This document shows positions 2,006 through 48,340 of a stretch of DNA of 64,000 nucleotides, one piece after another (position 1 is the stretch's first letter; each line of letters starts with the position of its first letter). This stretch comes from Chloroflexota bacterium (GTDB lineage: Bacteria > Chloroflexota > Anaerolineae > J036 > Brachytrichaceae), in contig JANXLU010000011.1 in assembly GCA_025354985.1 (NCBI GenBank), positions 1-64,000 of the forward strand, read 5' to 3'. Below the pieces are notes generated by a model that was given only the letters and a program-made list of their open reading frames with translations, was not told the origin of the DNA and ran no database searches. Made by a program: the position numbers and the translations under genes.

Positions 2006-3274
2006 CTACCCAAAATTCGCCATGTCGTTAAGCGAATAAATATCGCGCGGCGGACTTGCTGCCTTTAGCGCCGACCGCGGATCCTTTAGCCCGTGTCCGG
2101 TCATTTGGAGCACCACTTGGTCCGTGTGGCGGATTGTGCCACTGTCAAGCGCATGCCGTAACCCCGTGAGTGCCGCCGCGCTGGATGGTTCAACAAAGAC
2201 GCCCGTTGAACGCGCAAGCAGCGCCATGTCGGATAGCAGCTCATCGTCCTGCGCCTCAATAAATATGCCGCCACTTGAACGAACCGCCCGCAATGCCGCC
2301 ACGGCATCTTCTGGGAAATCCACGCTTATCCCACTTGCAATGGTCGTGGACGCTGTGAGGATGGGTTTTTCATCACCACGCTTCCACGCGTCAAATAAAG
2401 AGGATGCCCGCGTCGCGGTAACGCCGATAAACCGTGGCACCTCTTCTATCCAACCAACGTGCTTAAGCTCTGCAAACCCTTTGTGCACGCCGCTGATGAT
2501 GTTTCCATCCCCTACGGGCACAACCACGACGTCGGGTGCTCGAAAGACGCCGTCCTCGCCAAGCTGTTCGGCTATTTCGAATCCCGCCGTTTTTTTGCCC
2601 TCGCGTGTATACGGGTTTACGCCTGTCGTGCGGTTGTACCAGCCAAATTGTTCGGCGGCCTCCCGTGCCAAACGCACACAATCGGCGTAGGTGCCACGAA
2701 CTCGGTATACGGTGGCGCCGTTAATAAGAATTTGTGCCAGCTTCCCCTCTGGTGTGTCCATGGGAACAAAGATCACCGCACGAATCGTCGTTCCCGCACA
2801 AAGTGTGGCGAGCGCGGCGGCGGCGTTACCTGTGCTCGCCACCACAATCGTACCAATCCCCAGTGCATTGGCTTGCGCAATCACCATGGCACTCGCGCGA
2901 TCCTTAAAGCTGCTGCTTGGCAGCATGCTGTCCGCCTTTAGCCAGAGCGCACGCACATTGAAGCGTGTTTCCAAGTCGTACGCGCGATAAAGCGGGGACC
3001 AACCAACATCACCCAACGGCGTGTGCCGTGCGGAGCTCGGTGGACTGCACGGAAGGAATGGCCCATAGTGCCAGAGTGATCGATCTCGGCTTGAGGTCAC
3101 CTCGATCGGTGAAATATCGCGGGAGATGCGATCGTAGTGATAACGTGCGTCGAGATTACCCCCGCAGTTTGGGCAGGTTGTGCACAATGCGGTTGGATTC
3201 ACTGCAGATTCGCACGTAAGACACACAAATGAGCAAAGGTAGTTGGCGGCGCGTGGGTTGATACTAGAGGCCAT
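2006..3274 (-). CDS. thrC: Threonine synthase
   Basis: A 422-residue PLP enzyme that converts O-phosphohomoserine to threonine in the cytoplasm. The N-terminus has a zinc-ribbon-like set C18xxC21...C34xxC37, as in the longer bacterial ThrC class. The PLP lysine sits in SSFKDRAS. ASTGNAAAALA supplies the Asn loop, and a Gly-rich phosphate-binding turn (VPVGDGN) follows. The start was placed at the ATG at 3274, because the longer open frame to 3508 runs into the divergent amidohydrolase gene and has no ThrC homology. A TAAAAT box ends 8 nt before this ATG. Only 27 bases separate it from the divergent gene. O-phosphohomoserine versus other PLP substrates cannot be decided from sequence alone, but the zinc ribbon favours ThrC. 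Confidence 0.85.
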   Translation of the reverse strand: MASSINPRAANYLCSFVCLTCESAVNPTALCTTCPNCGGNLDARYHYDRISRDISPIEVTSSRDRSLWHYGPFLPCSPPSSARHTPLGDVGWSPLYRAYDLETRFNVRALWLKADSMLPSSSFKDRASAMVIAQANALGIGTIVVASTGNAAAALATLCAGTTIRAVIFVPMDTPEGKLAQILINGATVYRVRGTYADCVRLAREAAEQFGWYNRTTGVNPYTREGKKTAGFEIAEQLGEDGVFRAPDVVVVPVGDGNIISGVHKGFAELKHVGWIEEVPRFIGVTATRASSLFDAWKRGDEKPILTASTTIASGISVDFPEDAVAALRAVRSSGGIFIEAQDDELLSDMALLARSTGVFVEPSSAAALTGLRHALDSGTIRHTDQVVLQMTGHGLKDPRSALKAASPPRDIYSLNDMANFG

Positions 3275-20703: not shown

Positions 20704-21993
20704 ATGGCAATCGTACAAGCCCCAATCCCAATTTACGAAGACGAGCGCAATACTGTAACTGCGCAGGATGCACAACTTGACATCACCTTTGACCAGTTAA
20801 AAAAACTGGTAAGCCCAAGGGCGCTCACTGGTGAAACCATGTTGTTAAACATGGGCCCGCAACACCCAAGCACGCACGGTGTATTGCGGTTGCTTCTTGA
20901 GCTTGACGGAGAAACGGTAATCAACTGTGTGCCGGATATCGGTTATCTGCACACGGGAATCGAAAAGACTGCCGAAGGCAAGCCATATATGAAGAGCATT
21001 CCGCTGACGGATCGCACTGATTATCTGGCCCCGATGAGCAACAACCTGGCCTATTGCGGTGCGGTTGAGAAGCTGGTTGGTGTGGACGTTCCCATTCGTG
21101 CGCAATATCTGCGCGTGATCCTTGCCGAGCTCACCAGGATGAACAGTCACCTGGTATGGCTCGGGACGCACGCGCTGGACATAGGTGCAATGAGCGTATT
21201 TCTGTATTGCATGCGCGAGCGCGAAATGATTCTCGATGTATACGAGAACGTAAGCGGCGCGCGGATGATGAGCAGCTACTTTCGCATCGGTGGACTTTGG
21301 CGCGATGTGCCTTCGAGTTTTGAACCCCAGGTGCGCAAAATCCTGGAAGTATTCCCAAAGCGGGTACTGGAATACGAAAAGTTGCTCAAGGAAAATCCGA
21401 TTTGGCGCGAACGCACGGTCGGGATTGGAAAAATTGATGCGGTTAGGGCGCTTGAATTTGGCATGACGGGTCCCAGTTTGCGTGGAAGTGGCGTGAATTA
21501 TGATGTGCGCAAGGCAGCTCCTTATAGCAGTTACGATCACTTTAATTTTGAAGTGCCACTCGGAACAAACGGGGACGTTTATGACCGATATCGCTGCAGA
21601 TTGGATGAATTTCCACAGAGCTTAAAAATTATTGAACAGGCCTTGAACAAGCTGCCTGCGGGGCCGGTGATAACCGATGACCGGAAAATTGCACCTCCAC
21701 CCAAGCACGAAATTGCGACGTCGATGGAGAGTCTGATCCATCATTTCAAGCTGTGGACGGAGGGCTTTCGGACGCCGGAAGGCGAAGTATATTTTGCCGT
21801 TGAGAGTGGCAAGGGCGAATATGGCGTGTTTTTGAGTTCAAATGGCACGCCAACGCCGCGCCGAGTGCACTTTCGAACGCCAAGTTTTAGCAACCTGCAG
21901 GCCCTGGCCTATATGAGCAAGGGTTGCATGCTGGCGGATCTTGTCGCAATCATCGGCTCAATAGATATTGTGTTGGGTGATGTTGATCGATAG
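20704..21993 (+). CDS. nuoD: NADH-quinone oxidoreductase subunit D
   Basis: A 429-residue 49-kDa-type subunit of complex I. It forms the quinone-binding cavity in the peripheral arm. The family opening NMGPQHPSTHGVLRL is present, then IGYLHTGIEK, PMSNNLAYC, RMNSHLVWLG, TGPSLRGSGVNYDVRK and the C-terminal GDVDR. The ATG at 20704 gives MAIVQAP; an upstream start at 20665 is in frame but adds residues without homology. No Shine-Dalgarno sequence is visible. It is the first gene of a nuoDEFGHIJKL block; nuoA, nuoB and nuoC are not upstream, where a divergent secreted-protein gene lies. Confidence 0.95.
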   Translation: MAIVQAPIPIYEDERNTVTAQDAQLDITFDQLKKLVSPRALTGETMLLNMGPQHPSTHGVLRLLLELDGETVINCVPDIGYLHTGIEKTAEGKPYMKSIPLTDRTDYLAPMSNNLAYCGAVEKLVGVDVPIRAQYLRVILAELTRMNSHLVWLGTHALDIGAMSVFLYCMREREMILDVYENVSGARMMSSYFRIGGLWRDVPSSFEPQVRKILEVFPKRVLEYEKLLKENPIWRERTVGIGKIDAVRALEFGMTGPSLRGSGVNYDVRKAAPYSSYDHFNFEVPLGTNGDVYDRYRCRLDEFPQSLKIIEQALNKLPAGPVITDDRKIAPPPKHEIATSMESLIHHFKLWTEGFRTPEGEVYFAVESGKGEYGVFLSSNGTPTPRRVHFRTPSFSNLQALAYMSKGCMLADLVAIIGSIDIVLGDVDR

Positions 21994-22032
21994 GATCCAC
22001 ACCATGAATTTTCCACCTGATGTTTGCATAAC

Positions 22033-22506
22033 ATGCTAAAAGAAAAACGTGCCGCTGAAGTTGCGGCTATCTTGTCCAAATATCCGCACGAGCGCGTGCG
22101 TAGCGCCGTCATGCCGCTCCTGTATCTTGCACAGGAGGAGTATGGCTTTTGCACTCCGGACTCCATGCGTGAGATCGCGCAGATCTGTTCAATCGACCCT
22201 ACCGAGGTTCAGAGTGTGGCTGGTTTTTACACGATGTATTTTGAGAAGCCCGTGGGACGGCACGTGGTCGAAATTTGCGATGACCTGCCCTGTGTGCTCA
22301 GGGGCGCGGACAAATTGGTTGACTACGCAGAAACCAAGCTTGGTATTCGCGCTGGTGAAACAACTTCAGACGGTGCAATCACGCTCAAGGTGGCCATGTG
22401 CCTGGCGGCATGTGACCGCGCACCAATGTGCCAGGTTGACCTCAAATATCACTACGATTTGACCCGGGAAAAGTTCGACGACATGGTACAGGAGCTGCGC
22501 AAGTGA
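22033..22506 (+). CDS. nuoE: NADH-quinone oxidoreductase subunit E
   Basis: A 157-residue thioredoxin-like subunit of the NADH-oxidising module. The four ligands of the N1a [2Fe-2S] cluster are visible as EICDDLPC (C-x4-C) and AMCLAACD (C-x3-C). The N-terminal helical part reads VMPLLYLAQEEYGF and VQSVAGFYTMYF, typical of the family. The ATG at 22033 is used; a TTG three codons earlier is also in frame. The stop overlaps the nuoF GTG start. Confidence 0.93.
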   Translation: MLKEKRAAEVAAILSKYPHERVRSAVMPLLYLAQEEYGFCTPDSMREIAQICSIDPTEVQSVAGFYTMYFEKPVGRHVVEICDDLPCVLRGADKLVDYAETKLGIRAGETTSDGAITLKVAMCLAACDRAPMCQVDLKYHYDLTREKFDDMVQELRK

Positions 22507-23852
22507 CCAATCATATTTTGCTGCGGGATTTGGATATCCCGGACATTAAGAATCTCGCGGTCTATAGCGATCATGAAGGCTATGCCGCTTGGAAAAAAGC
22601 CGTGACCACCATGAAGGGTGAAGAAGTCATCGGCGTGGTAAAGGATAGCGGATTGCGCGGCCGTGGTGGTGCGGGCTTTCCAGCCGGTCTAAAGTGGAGC
22701 TTTATCCCCAAGGATATTTTTCCGAAGTACGTGACTGTCAACTGTGATGAGTCCGAACCCGGCACGTTCAAGGACCATCAGTTGATTCGCGAGAATCCGC
22801 ATCAAGTGATCGAGGGAACGGCCTTATGCGCCTTTGCGATTGGCAGCAAGGTCGCATATATTTACTGCCGCGGTGAGTTTAAGGAGCCCGTCGTTCAGCT
22901 TCAAAAAGCTATAGATGATGCCTATGCGGCCGGGCTTTTGGGCAAAAATCTGTTTGGCACGAACTACAGCCTTGACATTTATGTTCACCTGGGTGCTGGG
23001 GCCTATATCTGCGGTGAAGAAAGCGCGTTGCTGGAGTCACTCGAAGGAAAAATTGGTCAGCCCAGGCTAAAGCCTCCATTCCCGGCCGTCGTAGGTCTGT
23101 ATGGCAAGCCTACGGTCATCAATAATGTCGAAACTCTGGCCAATGTTCCGGGCATTGTGCTAAATGGTGCCGCTTGGTATCGCCAAAATGGGACCGAGAA
23201 GAGCCCAGGGACGAAAATTTTCAGCGTGTGTGGTCATGTAAAGAATGCGGCTAACTACGAGCTGCCGCTCGGCAAATTTTCAATACAAGACCTGCTGGAC
23301 ATGGCCGGCGGATCGATGAGCGGATTACCGATCAAGGCCGTGCTGCCCGCCGGAAGCAGCAGCCCCATTATTCCCGCTGCAAACTTTGGCGCAAAGTTGG
23401 ACTATGAATCGATGGCCGCTATCGGATCTGTTCTGGGATCGTGCTCGTGGATATTCATGGATGAGAGTGTGGATATGGTTTGGGCGGCGCGCAAGATGAT
23501 CCGCTTCTTCAAGCATGAAAGCTGTGGAAAATGCACGCCGTGCCGTGAAGGTACCCATTGGGCGCTTAGCGTCTACGACAAGCTTCTGAGCGGTTCAGGT
23601 ACGATTGAGGACGTCAAGACAATCGAAACGGTCAACAAGTCAATTACTGGAAAGTGCTTTTGCCCGTTGGGAGAGTTTGCAACCAGCAGTATGACGTTCA
23701 CGCTCAAACATTTTCGCAAGGACTACGACGACTTTATCAGCATGAAGAAAGGCGGTCGTGCGGACTGGATGCGCGAGCTGCAACGCGATCATCACATCCA
23801 CGAGATGCACAGCGGTGCGATTCCGGTGCACGGTATCCCAGTTCATCATTGA
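22503..23852 (+). CDS. nuoF: NADH-quinone oxidoreductase subunit F
   Basis: A 449-residue subunit that binds NADH and FMN and carries the N3 cluster. The nucleotide loop is GLRGRGGAGFPAGLKW, followed by NCDESEPGTFKD and GAGAYICGEESAL. The [4Fe-4S] ligands are in ESCGKCTPCREGT and CFCPLGEFA. It starts with GTG overlapping the nuoE stop (GTGA), so it is translationally coupled. The length is normal. The C-terminal His-rich end HHIHEMHSGAIPVHGIPVHH is slightly unusual and could be a metal-binding tail. Confidence 0.95.
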   Translation: MTNHILLRDLDIPDIKNLAVYSDHEGYAAWKKAVTTMKGEEVIGVVKDSGLRGRGGAGFPAGLKWSFIPKDIFPKYVTVNCDESEPGTFKDHQLIRENPHQVIEGTALCAFAIGSKVAYIYCRGEFKEPVVQLQKAIDDAYAAGLLGKNLFGTNYSLDIYVHLGAGAYICGEESALLESLEGKIGQPRLKPPFPAVVGLYGKPTVINNVETLANVPGIVLNGAAWYRQNGTEKSPGTKIFSVCGHVKNAANYELPLGKFSIQDLLDMAGGSMSGLPIKAVLPAGSSSPIIPAANFGAKLDYESMAAIGSVLGSCSWIFMDESVDMVWAARKMIRFFKHESCGKCTPCREGTHWALSVYDKLLSGSGTIEDVKTIETVNKSITGKCFCPLGEFATSSMTFTLKHFRKDYDDFISMKKGGRADWMRELQRDHHIHEMHSGAIPVHGIPVHH

Positions 23853-23858
23853 AACAAA

Positions 23859-26135
23859 ATGGCTGATCTTGTTAATCTAACGATTGATGGCGTTGCGGTT
23901 GCCGTACCAAAGGGTACATTGATCGTTGATGCCGCAAAGAAGCTCGAGAATAACATTCCGGTTTTTTGCTACCATCCAAAACTAAAGCCGGTTGGAATGT
24001 GTCGGATGTGCCTTGTGGAAATTGGCACTCCAAAGGTCGATCCCGCCACCAAACAGGTGATTAAGGATGACAAGGGCAATGTTGTAATTGCGTGGCAGCC
24101 AAAACTAAACACGGCATGCACCAACCCGGTTAGTGAAGGGATGGCGGTGCGCACGGCAACGCCGGTTGTAGATGGCGCGCGCAGCGACGTGTTGGAATTT
24201 TTGTTGACCAGTCATCCGCTGGATTGCCCGGTGTGTGACAAGGGCGGCGAGTGTCCGCTGCAAAACTTGACGCTTGAGCATGGGCCCGGTATTAGTCATT
24301 TTGATTATGAATCCAAGCAGCACAATGCCAAACATGTTCCACTTGGCGACCTGATATTTTTGGATCGCGAACGATGTATTCAGTGTTCTCGCTGCATTCG
24401 GTTTCAGGATGACATTGCGGACGATCACGTGTTGCAGTTTCACGACCGAGGTCGACACATGGAAATCGTAACCATGAGCGAGCCTGGGTTTGACAGCTAC
24501 TTCAGCGGCAACACCACGGATATTTGCCCGGTGGGAGCGCTTACGACCGCTGACTTTCGATTCAAGGCCCGGCCATGGGAGCTTGACCACACGCCAAGCC
24601 TATGTACACATTGCGCCGTTGGTTGCAATCTCTCACTAAACACCCGCTTGGAAACCAGAACAGGTGGTCATGAGATCAAGCGCATCATGCCGCGCCAGAA
24701 CGAACAGGTTAATGAAATCTGGACCTGCGACAAGGGTCGCTTTGTTCACGAGTTTACCTCCGCCCGGGAACGATTAACCAAGCCTTTGGTTCGCAAGAAT
24801 GGCGCACTTGTCGAGACTGGTTGGGATGAGGCACTCGCGCTGATTGCAGACAAATTGCAGGGCGCTGGCAGCAGTGTGGCCGGCGTGGTCGGAGATCGCG
24901 TTCCAAATGAGGACGCCTACCTGTTTGGCAAGCTGTTTCGCGAAGTGTTGCATGCCAACAATGGACGTCATCCGGTGCAGTTGGGCATGAGCCCGTCATT
25001 GCCTATGCACTATGCCGATGTTGCCCGAGCCCACGGTCTTGGCGTAAACGCCGATTTTAAACAGCTGGGTAAGGGCGACACAATTCTCATTGTGAATGGT
25101 GATGTTGAGGAGCAGGCCCCTGTTTGGTTTCTGCGTCTCCGTCAGGCTGTCGTCGATCGGGGTGCAAAGCTCATCATCGCTCATCACCGCAGCACAAAAA
25201 TGCACCGGTACGCCTCCCGGATTATTACCTATGCCCCCGGGAATGCTGCGCAGTGGCTGGCATCGCCCGATGGCGCGCTTGACGAACTAAAGGAAGCGCG
25301 AAATCTTGTGGTTGTTTTTGGTGATGAGAAATGTGACCCTGTCAACGCCCGTGGTCTGGCGCTTGGATTGGCCGGTTTGATCACGGCCGCCGGTCACGCT
25401 GGCAAGCAGAATAGCGGGTTGTTGCCACTTTACCCGCATGCAAATACTCAGGGCGTCTATGACATGCTCGGTCTTGAAACTCCGGGGGAAGACCTGCAGC
25501 CACCTGCGGCCGTTTCGTGGACTATTGGCGTTGGTGAACCCAACGATGTGCCACCGTCGCGCGCAAGCGGAGCCAAACCTTTTGCGATTGTCCAAGAGTT
25601 GTTTTTGACCGAAATTGCACAGCAAGCCGACGTGGTTTTGCCTGTGCTCAGTTTTGCCGAGCGGGACGGGTCATTTACCAGTGGCGACAGACGTGTGCAG
25701 CGGTTTTACGCCGGGTTGCCTGTCGCACATGGATCACAGGCAAAATCGGACTGGTGGATATTCCAAGAAATTGCCCGCAGGTTGGGCGTGTCGTGGTCCT
25801 TTGGCACCGCTGCCGCAATTTTTGGAGAGATGGCCGGTCAGGTTGGTTATTACGTCGGCCTAAACTATGATGGCTTGGGCGCAAGTGAAACCCAATGGCC
25901 ACCCATGGGTCGCGAAGATTTGTATTATGGCGGCACGGTTTATGACAACGAAGGCGGCATAGGCGTACGCTATCCGACGGCGGTCGAAAGTGGTCGCGCA
26001 GTGTCCTTTAAGCCGGTGCAGCTTGTCACGCCATCCATGGGTGCGCTTAGTCGGCCGGCGCGAAGGCTTTATCAAAACGGCGAGCTCATTGGGCGAAGCA
26101 ACGTCATAGGCGCACATATCGAGGTGACACAATGA
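23859..26135 (+). CDS. nuoG: NADH-quinone oxidoreductase subunit G
   Basis: A 758-residue large subunit of the peripheral arm. An N-terminal [2Fe-2S] ferredoxin domain has CYHPKLKPVGMCRMC and a following CTNP. Next come the N5 region HPLDCPVCDKGGECPL and the N4 motif RCIQCSRCIRF with a later CPVGAL. After these comes a molybdopterin-oxidoreductase-like domain starting CTHCAVGCNL, with further ligands before WTCDKGRF. The C-terminal domain has lost molybdenum chemistry in this family. Six bases separate it from nuoF and it overlaps nuoH by 4 bases. Confidence 0.95.
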   Translation: MADLVNLTIDGVAVAVPKGTLIVDAAKKLENNIPVFCYHPKLKPVGMCRMCLVEIGTPKVDPATKQVIKDDKGNVVIAWQPKLNTACTNPVSEGMAVRTATPVVDGARSDVLEFLLTSHPLDCPVCDKGGECPLQNLTLEHGPGISHFDYESKQHNAKHVPLGDLIFLDRERCIQCSRCIRFQDDIADDHVLQFHDRGRHMEIVTMSEPGFDSYFSGNTTDICPVGALTTADFRFKARPWELDHTPSLCTHCAVGCNLSLNTRLETRTGGHEIKRIMPRQNEQVNEIWTCDKGRFVHEFTSARERLTKPLVRKNGALVETGWDEALALIADKLQGAGSSVAGVVGDRVPNEDAYLFGKLFREVLHANNGRHPVQLGMSPSLPMHYADVARAHGLGVNADFKQLGKGDTILIVNGDVEEQAPVWFLRLRQAVVDRGAKLIIAHHRSTKMHRYASRIITYAPGNAAQWLASPDGALDELKEARNLVVVFGDEKCDPVNARGLALGLAGLITAAGHAGKQNSGLLPLYPHANTQGVYDMLGLETPGEDLQPPAAVSWTIGVGEPNDVPPSRASGAKPFAIVQELFLTEIAQQADVVLPVLSFAERDGSFTSGDRRVQRFYAGLPVAHGSQAKSDWWIFQEIARRLGVSWSFGTAAAIFGEMAGQVGYYVGLNYDGLGASETQWPPMGREDLYYGGTVYDNEGGIGVRYPTAVESGRAVSFKPVQLVTPSMGALSRPARRLYQNGELIGRSNVIGAHIEVTQ

Positions 26136-27133
26136 GTCTCTTGCTTGACGTTGTCCTGAAAGTTGTCGTGGTCCTATTTGCAGTGCTTACGGGTTTTGCA
26201 TATCTGACGCTCCTTGAGCGCAAGTTCATCAGCCGGTTGCAGGCGCGTATTGGCCCGAACCGCGCCGGTCCAGCCGGGTTGCTGCAGCCTCTTGCCGAAG
26301 CCCTTAAGCTGATTTTGAAGGAAAGCTTTGTGCCGTCCAGAGCGGACAAGTTTATGTTCTTTCTGGCGCCGATTTTGTCGGTAATCCCTGCGCTTATGTT
26401 GTTCGCGGTTATTCCTTTTGGAAACAATGATGTGCTGCAATTGGCTTCGCATGTTCCTGTCGGCGTGCTACTTGTGGCGTCAATTATTGGTACCGCGGTA
26501 TACGGAATCGCAATTGCCGGGTGGTCCAGTAACAACAAGTACGCCTCTCTGGGTGGGTTGCGCGCTGCCGCCCAAGTGATTAGTTATGAGTTGGCGTTTG
26601 GCCTTGCCATGATCGCGGTGGTGCTCATGAGCAGCTCTGCCAGCCTCGCGGATATTGTTACCGCACAGTTTGGCGGTGGTATTTTGGGATGGTTCATTTT
26701 TCGCCAGCCTCTGGCCGCCAGTATTTTTGCTATAACGGCCATGGCCGAGCTCGCGCGTGCACCGTTTGATCTGGTTGAGGCGGAGCAGGAGTTGACCGCT
26801 GGCTATATGACTGAGTATGGTGGCATGAAGTTTGCGCTGTTTTACATGAGCGAATATATCAAGATGATCGCATTGAGCGGGTTGTTCGTCACGTTTTTTC
26901 TCGGTGGTTGGAACGGTCCGTTTGCCCAAGAATTTTGGCCATTGTCGCTTCTCTACTTCTTTATCAAGGTTCTGGCTTGCTTGTTGGTCATGGTTTGGGT
27001 GCGGGCAACGCTGCCTAGACTGCGGTATGACAAGCTGATGGCTTTTGGTTGGAAGGGACTGTTGCCGCTGGCACTGGCAAACGTTGTTGTGACGGCCGCG
27101 CTCATTGTGTCGGGTTTACCAGGATACAAATAG
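26132..27133 (+). CDS. nuoH: NADH-quinone oxidoreductase subunit H
   Basis: A 333-residue membrane subunit with about eight helices that forms the quinone channel between the arms. Typical features are [30 protein letters not shown], the acidic loop [34 protein letters not shown] and the C-terminal [15 protein letters not shown]. It overlaps nuoG by 4 bases and precedes nuoI by one base. Confidence 0.95.
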
Positions 27134-27134
27134 T

Positions 27135-27668
27135 ATGGGTCTAAAAAACTTCTTTGAACAAGCTTCAAAACTACCGGTAGGGTTCGCCACCGTGTTGCGC
27201 GAGCTGGGCAAAAAGCCCGTTACCGTGCAATATCCCGAGGAAACGCGACCGATGAGTGCACGGTTTCGCGGGAGGCATGAACTAAAGCGCTATGAGAACG
27301 GTCTGGAGAAATGCATTGGATGTGCGCTTTGCGCAGCCGCCTGTCCCGCGGATGCGATATATGTGGAGGCGGCCGAGAATACCAACGAAGTGCGCTATTC
27401 ACCGGGCGAGCGTTATAGCAAGACATACGAGATAAACATGATGCGCTGCATCTTTTGTGGATATTGCGAGGATGCCTGCCCAACCAACGCAATCGTGCTT
27501 GAAGCGCGTGAGTTTCCATCGGGATATACCCGCGAAGGGATGATTTACACCAAGGAAATGCTCATTGAATCACCGCCAATTAACATCGCCGCTACGCCCC
27601 AAAGAACCGAGCCGGGCGCCTATGACCGCCCGATTCTGCCGTTCCCACCCATCGACACAAGCAAATGA
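27135..27668 (+). CDS. nuoI: NADH-quinone oxidoreductase subunit I
   Basis: A 177-residue 8Fe ferredoxin-like subunit carrying clusters N6a and N6b. Ligands are [12 protein letters not shown] and [12 protein letters not shown], with the [15 protein letters not shown] lead-in typical of the subunit. The ATG at 27135 follows the nuoH stop by one base and is preferred to an in-frame upstream codon inside nuoH. Its C-terminus overlaps nuoJ by 4 bases. Confidence 0.95.
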
Positions 27669-28165
27669 GCGCTGAATTTCTCGTATTCCTGGTTGTCGCC
27701 CTAATTTCTGTGGCTTCCGCACTGGGGCTTTTGCTTAGTAAGAACGCGATCTACGCCGCCATGTTTTTGATTTTGAATATGGTTTCACTCGCGGTGATTT
27801 ACCTGCTGTTGAACGCTCCCTTTATTGCGGCGGTGCAAGTGGCCGTTTATGCCGGTGCCATTATGGTTTTGTTTGTGTTCGTTATCATGTTGCTCGGTGC
27901 GGAAAAACTAAATGCACCCGAGACCCGCCCGGGTCTTAAGTGGCAACAACCATTGGCCCTTGCACTGGGTGTGGCGCTGGCGTTTCAGGCCCTGTATGTG
28001 GTCTTTGCACGGGGAATTACGGCACCGGCAAATGTAATTGAGGCAGGTCCGCTTGCAATTGGTCGCTTGCTTTTTACCACCTACCTATTTCCGTTTGAGG
28101 TTGCGTCGATCTTGCTGCTGGCCGCAATGGTGGGCGCCGTGGTGTTGACAAAGAAGGACAATTAA
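27665..28165 (+). CDS. nuoJ: NADH-quinone oxidoreductase subunit J
   Basis: A 166-residue membrane subunit with five predicted helices. The conserved [17 protein letters not shown] helix is present and the C-terminal helix ends [18 protein letters not shown], both hallmarks of NuoJ. It overlaps nuoI by 4 bases and is one base from nuoK. Confidence 0.94.
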
Positions 28166-28166
28166 G

Positions 28167-28469
28167 ATGACGGATATTCAACCGGTAATTCTGTTGAGTG
28201 CGTTGCTGTTTACGATCGGTGTCGTCGGCGTTATTAGCCGCCGAAATGCGCTCATCATTTTTATGTGCGTGGAGCTGATGCTAAATAGTTCAAATTTGGC
28301 ATTGGTGGCGTTTGCACGACAGTGGGGCAACTTGGACGGGCAACTTTTTGTATTCTTTGTCATGGCAGTGGCGGCGGCGGAGGTTGCCGTCGGGCTGGCG
28401 CTGATGGTTGCCATCTTCCGAACCAAACACAGCACAAACGTCGATGAACTTTCGCAGTTAAAGGGCTGA
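28167..28469 (+). CDS. nuoK: NADH-quinone oxidoreductase subunit K
   Basis: A 100-residue, three-helix antiporter-like subunit. It has [20 protein letters not shown] with the conserved membrane Glu and a second acidic helix [15 protein letters not shown]. The length and layout are standard. Confidence 0.95.
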
Positions 28470-28503
28470 CGCGCAGGCTTGATTGCGCGACCAAAAAGAC
28501 ATC

Positions 28504-30420
28504 ATGGCTATTCTTTTGCTTCCAATTCTCATCCCTTTGATTGCCGCGGCCATCAATGCGGTGTTTGGTCCCAAGCTGGGTGAACGAACGTCCGGCTGGC
28601 TGGCAACGCTGGCCTGCATGGCGTCGTTTGCCTGCAGCGTCGTGTTGTTCGCGCAGGTTGCCGGCCAGTCTGAAGGTGGTATGAACACCAACTTGTTCCC
28701 TTGGGTTTGGGTTGAAAACCTGCACGTTTCTTTCGGCCTGCTCGTTGATCGTCTCTCTGCGGCATTAATGCTGATCATCACCGGAGTGGGTGCGCTTATC
28801 CATCTTTATTCGATCGGATACATGCATGGCGATTCGCGATTCTCGCGCTATTTCGTCTATCTCAACCTATTTGTGGCCTTCATGTTGGTATTGGTCATGG
28901 GCAACAACTACCTCATGATGTTCGTTGGCTGGGAGGGTGTCGGCCTCTGCAGTTACTTGCTGATTGGCTTCTGGTACGAAAAAGCAAAGAACACCGATGC
29001 CGCACGCAAAGCATTTGTCCTCAATCGTATAGGCGATGTTGGGTTTATTGTCGGCCTATTGCTGATGTTCTCTGTGTTCCAGTCGCTAAATTTCTCGGAT
29101 GTGCTGGGCGTGGGTGAAACCGGTTTCAAAATTGGCGCTGCTCAGTTGCCGTTTGTCGGCTTGATTACGCTGCTCTTGCTGGTTGGCGCCACTGGTAAAA
29201 GCGCCCAAATCCCCTTGCTTGTATGGTTGCCGGATGCCATGTCCGGCCCCACTCCGGCATCCGCTTTGATCCATGCGGCCACGATGGTTACGGCCGGAAT
29301 CTACATGATCGTTCGCTCGCATGTGCTGTTTGACGCGGCGCCCTCCAGCGCAAATGTGGTCGCCCTGGTGGGTGCATGCACAGCTCTGCTGGCAGGTTCC
29401 ATTGCGCTGCGGCAATATGACATAAAGAAAGTGCTGGCCTATTCCACGGTCAGCCAGTTGGGTTTCATGGTCGCCGCGGCCGGGTTGGGAGCGTATACAG
29501 CCAGCATATTCCACTTGATGACGCACGCGTTTTTCAAGGCACTGTTGTTTTTGGCCGCGGGTAGTGTGATCCACGGCATGGAGCATTATGCGCACAACAT
29601 GGCTGCCAGCCATGATGAAAAGCATATTGACCCGCAGGACATGCGCAACATGGGTGGATTGGCGCGCAAAATGCCGTTGACAGCCTTGACGTTTCTTGCG
29701 GGAGCGCTATCGCTGGCGGGCCTGCCCCCATTCAGCGGTTTTTGGTCAAAGGACGAAATAATCCTGGCCGCGCTTGAGCGCAATCCGGTCGTGTTCGCCT
29801 TGCTTGCGGTGACAGCGGTTATTACTGCGTTCTATACAGGGCGCCAGCTTATGCTGGTATTTTGGGGAACCGCACGGACGCGCGATGCGCGCAACGCGCA
29901 GGAGAGCGGACCATTGATGACGCTACCTTTGCTCTTGCTCGCCATTTTGGCGCTGTTTGGCGGGCTTCTGAATTTTCCGGGTGGTCTATGGCTGGAACAT
30001 TGGCTGGAACCTGTTCTGGGCGCAGAACCTGCGGCCGGTTTTAATGTTGCAATTGCGATTTTGTTTTCCACATTGACAATTGTGGCTCTATTGGTCGCAT
30101 TTGGTCTATATCGTTACGGGGGCCGCGAGACCCAGGTTAAGGCGCAGACGGGTCTAAAAGGTGCCCTAAACCGTGGATGGTATCTCGATGACATTTATCG
30201 CGCGATCTTCGTCATACCGTTTTACGCACTCGCAAGCTTTTTGGCTCGTGTGTTTGACTTGGGCGGCATTGACGGTGTGGTAAATGGCATTGGCAGGCTA
30301 GTCAACACGGTTGCGCTCGGCGCGCGACGCTATCAGTCCGGTTTTGTGCGTATGTACGGATTGGTGATGTTGTTTGGCGTGGTTGCCATGTTGACGTGGT
30401 TCATGCTTAGCGCACGATAG
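28504..30420 (+). CDS. nuoL: NADH-quinone oxidoreductase subunit L
   Basis: A 638-residue antiporter-like proton-pumping subunit. It shows NNYLMMFVGWEGVGLCSYLLIGFW split over helices 4-5 (conserved Glu), the TGKSAQIPLLVWLPDAMSGPTP lysine region, LIHAATMVTAGIYM, STVSQLGFM, THAFFKALLFLAAG, and a C-terminal extension with a lateral helix. The ATG at 28504 is preferred to an upstream TTG. It closes the nuo block: nuoM and nuoN, which normally follow, are absent and an unrelated kinase-like gene starts immediately after the stop. Confidence 0.93.
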   Translation: MAILLLPILIPLIAAAINAVFGPKLGERTSGWLATLACMASFACSVVLFAQVAGQSEGGMNTNLFPWVWVENLHVSFGLLVDRLSAALMLIITGVGALIHLYSIGYMHGDSRFSRYFVYLNLFVAFMLVLVMGNNYLMMFVGWEGVGLCSYLLIGFWYEKAKNTDAARKAFVLNRIGDVGFIVGLLLMFSVFQSLNFSDVLGVGETGFKIGAAQLPFVGLITLLLLVGATGKSAQIPLLVWLPDAMSGPTPASALIHAATMVTAGIYMIVRSHVLFDAAPSSANVVALVGACTALLAGSIALRQYDIKKVLAYSTVSQLGFMVAAAGLGAYTASIFHLMTHAFFKALLFLAAGSVIHGMEHYAHNMAASHDEKHIDPQDMRNMGGLARKMPLTALTFLAGALSLAGLPPFSGFWSKDEIILAALERNPVVFALLAVTAVITAFYTGRQLMLVFWGTARTRDARNAQESGPLMTLPLLLLAILALFGGLLNFPGGLWLEHWLEPVLGAEPAAGFNVAIAILFSTLTIVALLVAFGLYRYGGRETQVKAQTGLKGALNRGWYLDDIYRAIFVIPFYALASFLARVFDLGGIDGVVNGIGRLVNTVALGARRYQSGFVRMYGLVMLFGVVAMLTWFMLSAR

Positions 30421-45390: not shown

Positions 45391-45997
45391 TGTTTACGCT
45401 TTCCAAATAGACCACGGTGATCGCGTGATTCACCTTGGTTGGTTTGCCAATCCGACAGATTTTGCCTAGGGTTTGATCGAGGGCCTGACAGACATTTCAG
45501 ATTCCAACGGTCCGGCGTCCTTTGAATGGAACACCCGCCGTGATGAACTTGTCAGTTTTGGTGATGTTACGTATCACGAGAACGCGCTTAAGATCAGTTT
45601 TGAAAACCCAGGCAATTTTGTGTCCTTGGAGGAAGCACCCGACAAATTGATTCGTGATGTTCGCCCCAGATACGTTGGTCACGAGGTGATCCTGTCGGGT
45701 GAGCCCGGTCTTGCACCGGCCCATGGTCAGGATCCCGCGAACGTATCCCAACGAGAAACGCTGCGCGTTACGCTTGTTGACGCGAACCAAAAATTCCAGA
45801 TTGTTCTGTGCTAATGAATCACGACCGAATGTGATGGTATTGAACGCTGGTGTGAACTCGCCAATTTTGGAGATTCAATTGTTCGGGTTGAAGCCTGTGC
45901 ATTCGCATCTATGCATGTTCCAAATAGCGCCTCAGAGCTGACCACGGTGGCGGGTGCATGGGCGCGCGAATTTTCGCAGCAGCGCGAGCATCATTAA
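45338..45997 (+). pseudogene. Remnant of a GH36 alpha-galactosidase N-terminal domain
   Basis: One reading phase from the ATG at 45338 gives an N-terminal domain like that of GH36 alpha-galactosidases: TSVYAFQIDHGDRVIHLGWF, then VSFGDVTYHENALKISF, RYVGHEVI, ETLRVTLVD, and after two stops RWCELANFGDSIVRVEA and VAGAWAREF. The phase is interrupted by TAG (45467), adjacent TAA and TGA (45812-45817) and TAA (45995), with no frameshift needed. The whole catalytic domain is missing. It is thus a decayed fragment of about 200 codons. It starts inside the end of the membrane-protein gene. With the dead lacI it marks the loss of an alpha-galactoside-use locus. Confidence 0.75.
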
Positions 45998-46145
45998 TGT
46001 TGATGACGTTGAGGAATTCCGTGCAACCGGCTGTCAGTTAATGACCCTGGGTATTCCCGGCCATGCCAATAAGTCCGCAGGATTTAGCACCACACTGTTT
46101 CTAAATCAGGTGCAAGCAGATGGTCAGCCTGGCTGACCAGGCAGG
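45998..46145. other. Non-coding stretch with overlapping hairpins
   Basis: No gene was recognised. A phase from 45954 reads without stops for 60 codons but has no family resemblance. Near the end, GGTCAG-CCTGG-CTGACC (46122-46138) and GCCTGG-CTGA-CCAGGC (46127-46142) are two mutually exclusive hairpins, lying just before the Rex-like operator. There is no T-run. Confidence 0.4.
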
Positions 46146-46163
46146 TTGTGAAAGTTTTCACAA
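46146..46163. promoter_or_regulatory. Rex-like operator upstream of ndh
   Basis: TTGTGAAAGTTTTCACAA is an 18-bp inverted repeat with perfect 8-bp arms TTGTGAAA/TTTCACAA. It matches the known operator of the NADH/NAD+-sensing repressor Rex (TTGTGA-N6-TCACAA). It ends 8 bases before the -10-like box of ndh, so it covers the -35 region. Rex is known to repress ndh in Bacillus; the same logic fits here. Confidence 0.8.
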
Positions 46164-46170
46164 TCTCGCG

Positions 46171-46176
46171 TACAAT
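46171..46176 (+). promoter_or_regulatory. -10 box of ndh, near-leaderless
   Basis: TACAAT is followed by 8 nt and the ATG at 46185. TTGTGA, part of the Rex-like site, lies 19 bases upstream as a possible -35. No Shine-Dalgarno is present. Confidence 0.6.
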
Positions 46177-46184
46177 TAAAAAAC

Positions 46185-47432
46185 ATGATCAAAAAACCGG
46201 TTGTGGCTGTCATTGGGGCGGGGTTTGGCGGATTGGCCGTGGCACGCGCACTAAAGGGAGCCGACGTGGAGGTGCATCTCATTGATTCGCGCAATCACCA
46301 TATTTTCCAGCCACTCCTGTATCAAGTTGCTACAGCGGGTCTCGAACCCGAAGAAATTGCTCATGCTATCCGGGGTGAAGTAAGGCGTCAAGCCAATGTG
46401 CGGTTTCGCATGGCGCGCGTTGTAAGCGGCGATCTACTTGCCAAATTACTTGTCACCTCGACTGGAGAATCGATTGCGTTCGATTACCTTGTGCTGGCCG
46501 CTGGGGCTGTCACCAGTGACTTCGGAATTTCAGGCGTAGCCGAACATGCATTTGGCCTGAAAAGTTTGGAAGATGCCATTGCTTTGCGCAGCCACATCGT
46601 GAAAAAGTTTGAGGAAGCAGATGCGCTTGAGCGGAAGGTTCCCGATGGCATGTTAACCTTTGTTGTCGCTGGCGGGGGACCGACCGGAGTCGAGATGGCC
46701 GGAGCACTTACGGAACTGTTTGACAAGGTCCTTCGCAAAGACTTTCCGAATCTCGATTTTGGCGCAGTGCGCGTGGTGTTGCTCGAAGCCCTTGACAGGT
46801 TGCTGCCGCCGTTTGATGTTCGACTGCAACAATACACACTGGCGACACTAAAAAAATTTGGCGTCGACGTGCGATTTGGCGCCCAAGTAATCTCAGTTAC
46901 CACGGAAGGTGTTACGCTCAAAGACGGTTCGGCAATTCCGGCGAAAACCGTGGTTTGGGGAGCCGGGATCACAGGCAATCCACTTGCCTCACACCTTGCA
47001 TTGCCGATGGTACGGGGTGGTCGCGTTGCTGTAAATGATGATTTGACAGTTCCAGGTATACCCGGTGTATTTGTAATTGGCGATCTTGCTGCCGGCAAGG
47101 ATGTTCATGGCAATGTGTATCCGCAGCTGGCCCAAGCGGCAATCCAGGGTGGAAAGCATGTGGCGTTTCAAATAGTCCGGCAAATCAACAATTTGCAGAC
47201 GCAACCGTTTGCATACAAGGACCCGGGATTTATGGCAACCATTGGCCGCCAGGAAGCAGTAGCGCAATTTCCATCCGGACTTAAGGTCAGGGGAGCAATC
47301 GCCTGGATTATGTGGTTGTTTCTGCACTTGTTATATTTGGTCGGTTTTAGAAATCGCACACAAGTACTCATAAATTGGATATGGAGCTACTTCTCTTATG
47401 AACGCGGCGCGAGGTTGATAATGTGGCAATAA
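46185..47432 (+). CDS. ndh: Type II NADH dehydrogenase (NDH-2)
   Basis: A 415-residue single-chain flavoprotein that passes electrons from NADH to quinone without proton pumping. The FAD loop is VAVIGAGFGGLAVARAL, followed by HHIFQPLLYQVATAGL. The NADH loop is VVAGGGPTGVEMAGAL, and FVIGDLAAG near 300 holds the flavin end. The C-terminus is amphipathic and aromatic (WIMWLFLHLLYLVGF, QVLINWIWSYFSYERGAR) for membrane attachment. It gives the cell an alternative to the complex I encoded in the same window. The Rex-like operator upstream indicates induction when NADH is high. It is followed by a TIGR01777 epimerase gene 2 bases later. Confidence 0.92.
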   Translation: MIKKPVVAVIGAGFGGLAVARALKGADVEVHLIDSRNHHIFQPLLYQVATAGLEPEEIAHAIRGEVRRQANVRFRMARVVSGDLLAKLLVTSTGESIAFDYLVLAAGAVTSDFGISGVAEHAFGLKSLEDAIALRSHIVKKFEEADALERKVPDGMLTFVVAGGGPTGVEMAGALTELFDKVLRKDFPNLDFGAVRVVLLEALDRLLPPFDVRLQQYTLATLKKFGVDVRFGAQVISVTTEGVTLKDGSAIPAKTVVWGAGITGNPLASHLALPMVRGGRVAVNDDLTVPGIPGVFVIGDLAAGKDVHGNVYPQLAQAAIQGGKHVAFQIVRQINNLQTQPFAYKDPGFMATIGRQEAVAQFPSGLKVRGAIAWIMWLFLHLLYLVGFRNRTQVLINWIWSYFSYERGARLIMWQ

Positions 47433-47434
47433 TC

Positions 47435-48340
47435 ATGACAAGAAAAATCGTAATCGCGGGTGGCAGCGGATTTATAGGTCGCGGGCTTGAGGCGCATTTC
47501 TCATCCAAGGGGGATAACGTCACGGTCCTGACAAGGACCCCATCCAAACCAAACCATGTTGGCTGGGACGGCAAAACGCAGGGTGCGTGGGTTGAATCAC
47601 TTGAGGGGGCAACCGCCCTGATAAATCTGACCGGGAAAAACATTAACTGCCGATGGAACGATGAGAACAGGCGCGAAATAATTGCATCGCGGACCGAGGC
47701 CATCGCAGTTTTGGGCTCGGCACTTCGAACCCTGCAGAAAGCACCCAAAGTTTGGATTCAAAGTGCGGGTATTGATTTTGTTGGTGATGGCCCGGTTGGC
47801 CGGGATGAGTCCGCACCCCGAGCGCCCAGTGGATTTCTAACCGAGATTTGCGCTTTGTGGGAGCAAGCCTTCGCGGCTCAATCCGACGTGCCCATCAGAC
47901 GCACTTTGTTTCGCATTGGGCCGGTCTTGGGGCAGGGCGGCGGCCCATTGGTGCCGCTGGCCACGCTTGCAAAGCTCTTTCTGGGCGGGTCAGTCGGCGC
48001 CGGCACACAGCATTTCAGTTGGATACATTTGGGCGATTTGGCCGGAATTTTTGACTGGGCCATTGACAATCAAAACGCATCGGGAACCTATCACGCTGTT
48101 GCGCAAAATCCGTCAACAAATGCGCAATTTATGTTTGCATTGCGCAAGGCCTACGGCCGGCCCTGGTCTCCGCCCGTTCCATCTTTTGCGGCCCGCATTG
48201 GGGCGGAGGTGATTGGCTCGCCCGCAGATATCGTGTTGGGTGGGTCTTATGGCGTGCCCGCACGATTGCTGGCAGAGGGCTATAAATTTAGGTTTCCGAC
48301 CGCGGACTCGGCGCTTGCGGATCTCATTCCGAAGCGCTGA
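47435..48340 (+). CDS. TIGR01777-family epimerase (YfcH/SDR39U1-like)
   Basis: A 301-residue atypical SDR. The nucleotide loop is IVIAGGSGFIGRGLEAHF. Family signatures are WDGKTQGAWVESLEGATALINLTGKNINCRW, here read in two parts around LINLTGKNI, then IQSAGIDFVGD, FRIGPVLGQGGG and WIHLGDLAGIFDWAI, with a C-terminal GVPARLLAEGYKFRFP. The reaction is unknown; homologs are widespread. It begins two bases after the ndh stop and so shares the Rex-controlled transcript. Confidence 0.88.
   Translation: MTRKIVIAGGSGFIGRGLEAHFSSKGDNVTVLTRTPSKPNHVGWDGKTQGAWVESLEGATALINLTGKNINCRWNDENRREIIASRTEAIAVLGSALRTLQKAPKVWIQSAGIDFVGDGPVGRDESAPRAPSGFLTEICALWEQAFAAQSDVPIRRTLFRIGPVLGQGGGPLVPLATLAKLFLGGSVGAGTQHFSWIHLGDLAGIFDWAIDNQNASGTYHAVAQNPSTNAQFMFALRKAYGRPWSPPVPSFAARIGAEVIGSPADIVLGGSYGVPARLLAEGYKFRFPTADSALADLIPKR

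Follow-up and report, generated by a model that had tools for sequence, protein, structure and literature searches.

What reads the inverted repeat immediately upstream of the type II NADH dehydrogenase gene ndh, and is complex I under the same control in this organism? The repeat lies in what we call the window, the whole 64,000-nucleotide stretch of DNA that was analyzed, which is part of contig C85 of a 4.19-Mb genome that is 95.8% complete. It has the sequence TTGTGAAAGTTTTCACAA (positions 46146–46163, with no strand assigned), in which the arms TTGTGAAA and TTTCACAA form a perfect 8-bp inverted repeat around a two-nucleotide GT center. When set against the 18-bp Rex operator form TTGTGAA-N4-TTCACAA, it shows no mismatches. 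The initial annotation, which had read the repeat as a Rex operator, was correct on re-reading in its sequence, its coordinates, and its 8-bp arms. A sigma-70 consensus scan places a predicted promoter over the site (46148–46176, plus strand, score 9/12), with a −35 hexamer GTGAAA (46148–46153) inside the repeat, a 17-bp spacer, and a −10 box TACAAT (46171–46176). The gap between the operator and this box is 7 nt, one less than had been annotated, while the 8 nt from the box to the ndh ATG at 46185 agree with the earlier count; the operator thus ends 21 bp 5′ of the start codon. Because there is no obvious Shine–Dalgarno sequence and the −10 box is only 8 nt from the ATG, the ndh mRNA is probably leaderless, with a 5′ end predicted near 46184.

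The gene itself (46185–47432, plus strand) encodes a 415-residue protein with two domains above their cut-offs, PF07992 (182.1 bits) and PF22366 (NDH2_C, 35.2 bits), and by this domain content the product is a bona fide NDH-2. Its closest named relatives are from a Candidatus Roseilinea metagenome-assembled genome (58%) and another Anaerolineae assembly (57%). A second, distant NDH-2-like protein is encoded at C20:17542–18786 (35% identical, in an open frame of 576 aa), and no Rex site was found upstream of its gene. Upstream of ndh, the interval that separates it from a membrane-protein ORF (45473–46130) holds a short ORF without a Pfam match and then an apparent decayed frame; by eye the latter is possibly MOSC-like, and it may be a pseudogene or a sequencing error.

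How much weight can a single palindrome carry? With up to three mismatches allowed, 0.06 matches are expected in the 64-kb window, and TTGTGAAAGTTTTCACAA is the sole match, found once per strand. Nor does the 4.19-Mb genome hold any other exact TTGTGA-N6-TCACAA; this is unremarkable by itself since, by our own arithmetic, 12 fixed bases should be matched exactly about 0.25 times in 4.2 Mb of even composition. Of the 28 genomes of the order, 14 contain the exact pattern, with about 35 sites among them, whereas the reversed pattern, used as a control, is absent from all 28. We scored the site with a weight matrix trained on seven sites from sister genomes, with the nuo and ndh sites left out. 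TTGTGAAAGTTTTCACAA reaches 25.4 bits; the best of 39,997 random 130-bp stretches reaches 15.1 bits, the background chance for such a stretch to reach 15 bits is 0.0016, and none attains 25.4. That score, the recurrence of sites at orthologous ndh genes described below, the position on the promoter of a known Rex target, and the extension of the arms to 8 bp all argue against a chance palindrome without function, which we consider very improbable. An inverted repeat directly 5′ of a gene could also be an RNA element, that is, a transcribed hairpin or terminator. Here, the repeat is upstream of the predicted −10 box and so outside the ndh transcript, and A/T-rich arms with a 2-nt center would make a poor hairpin; an Rfam scan of 45.0–48.6 kb returned no matches, and no terminator-like sites were found. 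We give this explanation almost no credence.

The obvious candidate reader is encoded in the genome. A search found one genuine rex gene (L001:1399–2100), so that lack of a Rex homologue is no objection to the annotated operator. The product matches solved Rex proteins (best E 2.2e-45) and the NCBIfam Rex models, and it aligns with Thermotoga maritima Rex over 198 residues (E 2e-45). When mapped by eye on this alignment, 9 of the 12 T. maritima DNA-contact residues are kept, including Arg48 and Lys49, which read bases in the T. maritima Rex–NAD+–operator structure 7WB3 (PMC8836258). The changed contacts are Glu34 to Arg, Lys43 to Ser, and Arg60 to Gln, of which Glu34 and Arg60 are described as non-conserved within the Rex family (PMC8836258). 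One observation counts against Rex, namely that no operator was found at this genome's own rex promoter. Autoregulation of rex was accordingly set aside, and TGTGTTAnnAT, an element found at several of the order's rex promoters, has the look of an extended −10 and not of a Rex site. The rex gene shares one base with a hisA-like gene, after which comes a hisF-like gene (L001:1399–2858). Roseilinea-like genomes carry Rex-like sites such as TTGTGAAGCGTTTCACAC (L268, L270, L272, and L273, near 1501) 60–70 bp 5′ of a gene for a histidinol dehydrogenase-like, NAD-using enzyme (names from sequence), and a Rex–histidine link is possible.

The classical CRP consensus is TGTGA-N6-TCACA, with which TTGTGAAAGTTTTCACAA is compatible, and the site might thus be read by a regulator of the CRP/FNR family. 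A study of Shewanella oneidensis reports direct regulation of NADH dehydrogenase genes by Crp (PMC12210985), and other genomes of the order hold CRP-type proteins together with more CRP-like sites, for example TTGTGATTTTTGTCACAA before spoVS. In this 95.8%-complete genome, however, no HTH_Crp_2 protein scores above the cut-off (best 22.3 bits, cut-off 27); sub-threshold matches are all that it has, where most relatives have several such proteins. Three cNMP-binding domains are present, two of them in proteins with non-HTH domains (one a DUF1003) and the third at a place without an HTH_Crp_2 match. The inner AA....TT bases of TTGTGAAAGTTTTCACAA are moreover Rex-like. A CRP/FNR-type reader is therefore improbable, and Rex is by far the likeliest one because a rex gene with the base-reading residues is present and a CRP-type HTH was not found. 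Taken together with the ndh operators in two other genera, this makes the annotated Rex reading a better fit than its rivals, and we are confident, short of certainty, that the palindrome at 46146–46163 serves as operator for Rex, the NADH-sensing repressor. One other genus has TTGTGATTTTTGTCACAA-like sites repeatedly in the vicinity of spoVS (L162, L163, L165, and L167, near 3000–3080). Such spoVS-associated sites are perhaps CRP-type; the bins G007 and G009, in which rex was not found, are among the carriers. These same two bins hold an exact TGTGAA-N4-TTCACA (L257:10–25 and L259:1501–1516) roughly 100 bp upstream of a 2-oxoacid:ferredoxin oxidoreductase-like gene (name from sequence).

Close ndh homologues occur in nine of the 28 genomes, eight of them with upstream DNA. 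An operator lies 21–42 bp before the ndh start in four of these eight, from three genera: this genome, G025 (TTGTGACAGATTTCACAA), G010 (TTGAGAATTATTTCACAA), and G007 (TTGAGAATTTTTTCACAA). The matching sites in the two other genera are 30–42 bp before the start. The G010 and G007 sites resemble the T. maritima crystal operator TTGAGAAATTTATCACAA (7WB3), in which the TTGAGAA half-site variant is also present (PMC8836258). The operator is missing in the other four, G006 and three Roseilinea-like genomes. Two features of this distribution count against Rex: most of the site-less genomes (the Roseilinea-like genus and G006) do have rex, and the 87%-complete bin of G007 has a near-perfect ndh site, yet a search of it for rex found none.

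Within this genome, ndh is provisionally the single predicted Rex target. A scan for sites with up to two mismatches to TTGTGAAN4TTCACAA gave eight sites, the same number as in the control. Eight other sites with one mismatch in the core, including C66:82638, were rejected, as all fall in predicted ORFs (one near an ORF end), and the same applies to four of the five one-mismatch TTGTGA-N6-TCACAA sites. The fifth, TTTTGATATTGGTCACAA at C91:12161, lies 67 bp before a lipoprotein-like ORF, and a weak further candidate, TTGCAACATTTTTCACAA, lies 24 bp before a CofD-like ORF (L011; name from sequence). We call the single target provisional because the genus is broad and the genome-wide scan covered sites with up to two mismatches.

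Is complex I under the same control? The initial annotation had noticed no similar site before nuoD, and our scoring bears this out: upstream of the complex I genes nuoD to nuoL (20704–30420, plus strand) the best score is 6.7 bits, versus 25.4 bits at ndh, and the nuoA, nuoD, nuoM, and nuoN promoters range from −4.1 to 6.7 bits, which means no operator. Since complex I here is without an operator, it is probably regulated differently from NDH-2, as had been proposed. The three genus-mates G001, G002, and G003 present the opposite arrangement. No NDH-2 was found in them at E 1e-5, and with completeness values of 91, 94, and 78%, respectively, a joint loss through incompleteness is unlikely. 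The sisters' complex I genes are scattered in much the same way as those of this genome, in nuoABC, a cluster started by nuoD, nuoM, and nuoN (NCBIfam confirmed subunit N; the names A, B, C, D, and M come from sequence, partly via this genome's genes). Rex-like operators precede nuoA, nuoD, nuoM, and nuoN in all three sisters (12/12; loci L215–L220, L228, L229, L277, L148, L155, and L224). These end 4–39 bp before the start codon and score 15.8–23.6 bits, all above the 15.1-bit background maximum. The sequences are TTGTGATAAAATTCACAC (or a variant ending in CAT) at nuoA, TTGTGATAAAATTCACGA at nuoD, TTGTTCAAAAATTCACAA at nuoM, and TTGTGAATTTGTTCACAA at nuoN (TTGTGAATTTGTTTGCAA in G002). The 12 sites are not independent because the sisters are close (nuoN 85–98% identical); this genome is further removed, with a nuoN 59% identical to theirs, so that the genus is a broad one. 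Further candidate sites in the sisters lie before genes for FtsH, a Na+/sulfate-type symporter, DoxX, P450/ribosomal protein S20, and an M23 peptidase, and a polyprenyl synthase-like gene of G001 also has a Rex-like site. The present genome carries two nuoB copies, at C53:3109–3588 and C34:2104–2544, whose products share 91% and 57% identity with that of G001; they hint that it may have another complex I set, perhaps a partial one.

From these sequence comparisons, Rex appears to control complex I in the genomes that lack NDH-2, and NDH-2 in the present one. That Rex switched its respiratory targets within the genus, controlling all four complex I units in the NDH-2-less sisters and being reduced in this lineage to a near-dedicated NADH sensor for a single NDH-2 operon, with complex I left free, is a proposal for which we see about equal grounds for belief and for doubt. 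Two histories may underlie the contrast. In the first, ndh and its operator are old, were lost together in the sisters, and the nuo operators were gained there; we consider it because other genera have ndh operators too. In the second, the nuo operators were lost in the present lineage.

The mechanism that we propose follows from homologous systems. At a low NADH/NAD+ ratio, Rex–NAD+ dimers would bind 46146–46163, where they would occlude the −35 region and so deny RNA polymerase access to the ndh promoter. As NADH builds up, Rex–NADH would leave the DNA, and ndh would then be transcribed, probably with the downstream epimerase gene, so that NDH-2 could re-oxidize NADH into the quinone pool without proton pumping. 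In a cell with both enzymes, complex I would operate outside Rex control and NDH-2 would serve as an NADH overflow valve, an arrangement that would be physiologically sensible. In our opinion, what merits a specialist's time is the difference in targets among closely related genomes. It offers a natural comparison of the choice of redox feedback, which would act on the energy-conserving dehydrogenase if this is the sole one and on the non-pumping one if both exist, and the site itself provides, for an uncultured order of Chloroflexota, a concrete candidate NADH switch that can be tested cheaply.

The downstream gene (47436–48340, plus strand) encodes a TIGR01777 family (YfcH-like) oxidoreductase/epimerase (230.5 bits, NCBIfam cut-off 207.35). 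Its ATG is 3 nt downstream of the ndh stop, and on account of this gap co-transcription of the two genes is likely. The two genes had been described as a small redox regulon; the 3-nt gap speaks for this description, but no epimerase homologue adjoins ndh in any other genome examined, and the claim is weakly supported. With the linkage absent elsewhere, conservation gives no sign of an NADH-linked role for the epimerase. NADH control of the epimerase may be a by-product of its position, and the Rex site alone assigns it no function.

The proposed circuit is of a known kind, Rex acting on ndh and nuo, in a new instance, and its new element is the target contrast within one genus. A survey of Rex regulons was reportedly published by Ravcheev and others in 2012. 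Our literature search found no paper pairing Rex, Chloroflexus, and regulon, with that survey outside its scope. A close functional parallel is Bacillus subtilis, in which Rex represses yjlC-ndh (as cited in PMC5355995), in agreement with the annotated statement that Rex represses ndh in Bacillus, and also controls cydABCD, lctP-ldh, and ywcJ. In both organisms Rex acts, here by prediction, on an operon holding a type II NADH dehydrogenase gene. The ndh gene is the second one in the B. subtilis operon, whereas here it is the first and is followed by the TIGR01777 gene, and B. subtilis Rex has several further targets, whereas no further clear target was found here. With Staphylococcus aureus, the likeness is in the operator: TTGTGAAAGTTTTCACAA agrees with all 14 fixed positions of the consensus TTGTGAAW4TTCACAA (PMC2883068), with a spacer AGTT that places one G in W4, and the Rex targets reported there are mostly fermentation and nitrate genes (PMC2883068). 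In Streptomyces avermitilis, nuoA1-N1 and ndh2 each have Rex bound in their upstream regions, and the nuoA1 footprint runs from −42 to −16 (PMC5355995), a position resembling that of the operator described here. There, both targets are in one genome; here, the predicted complex I and NDH-2 operators are divided between different species of one genus.
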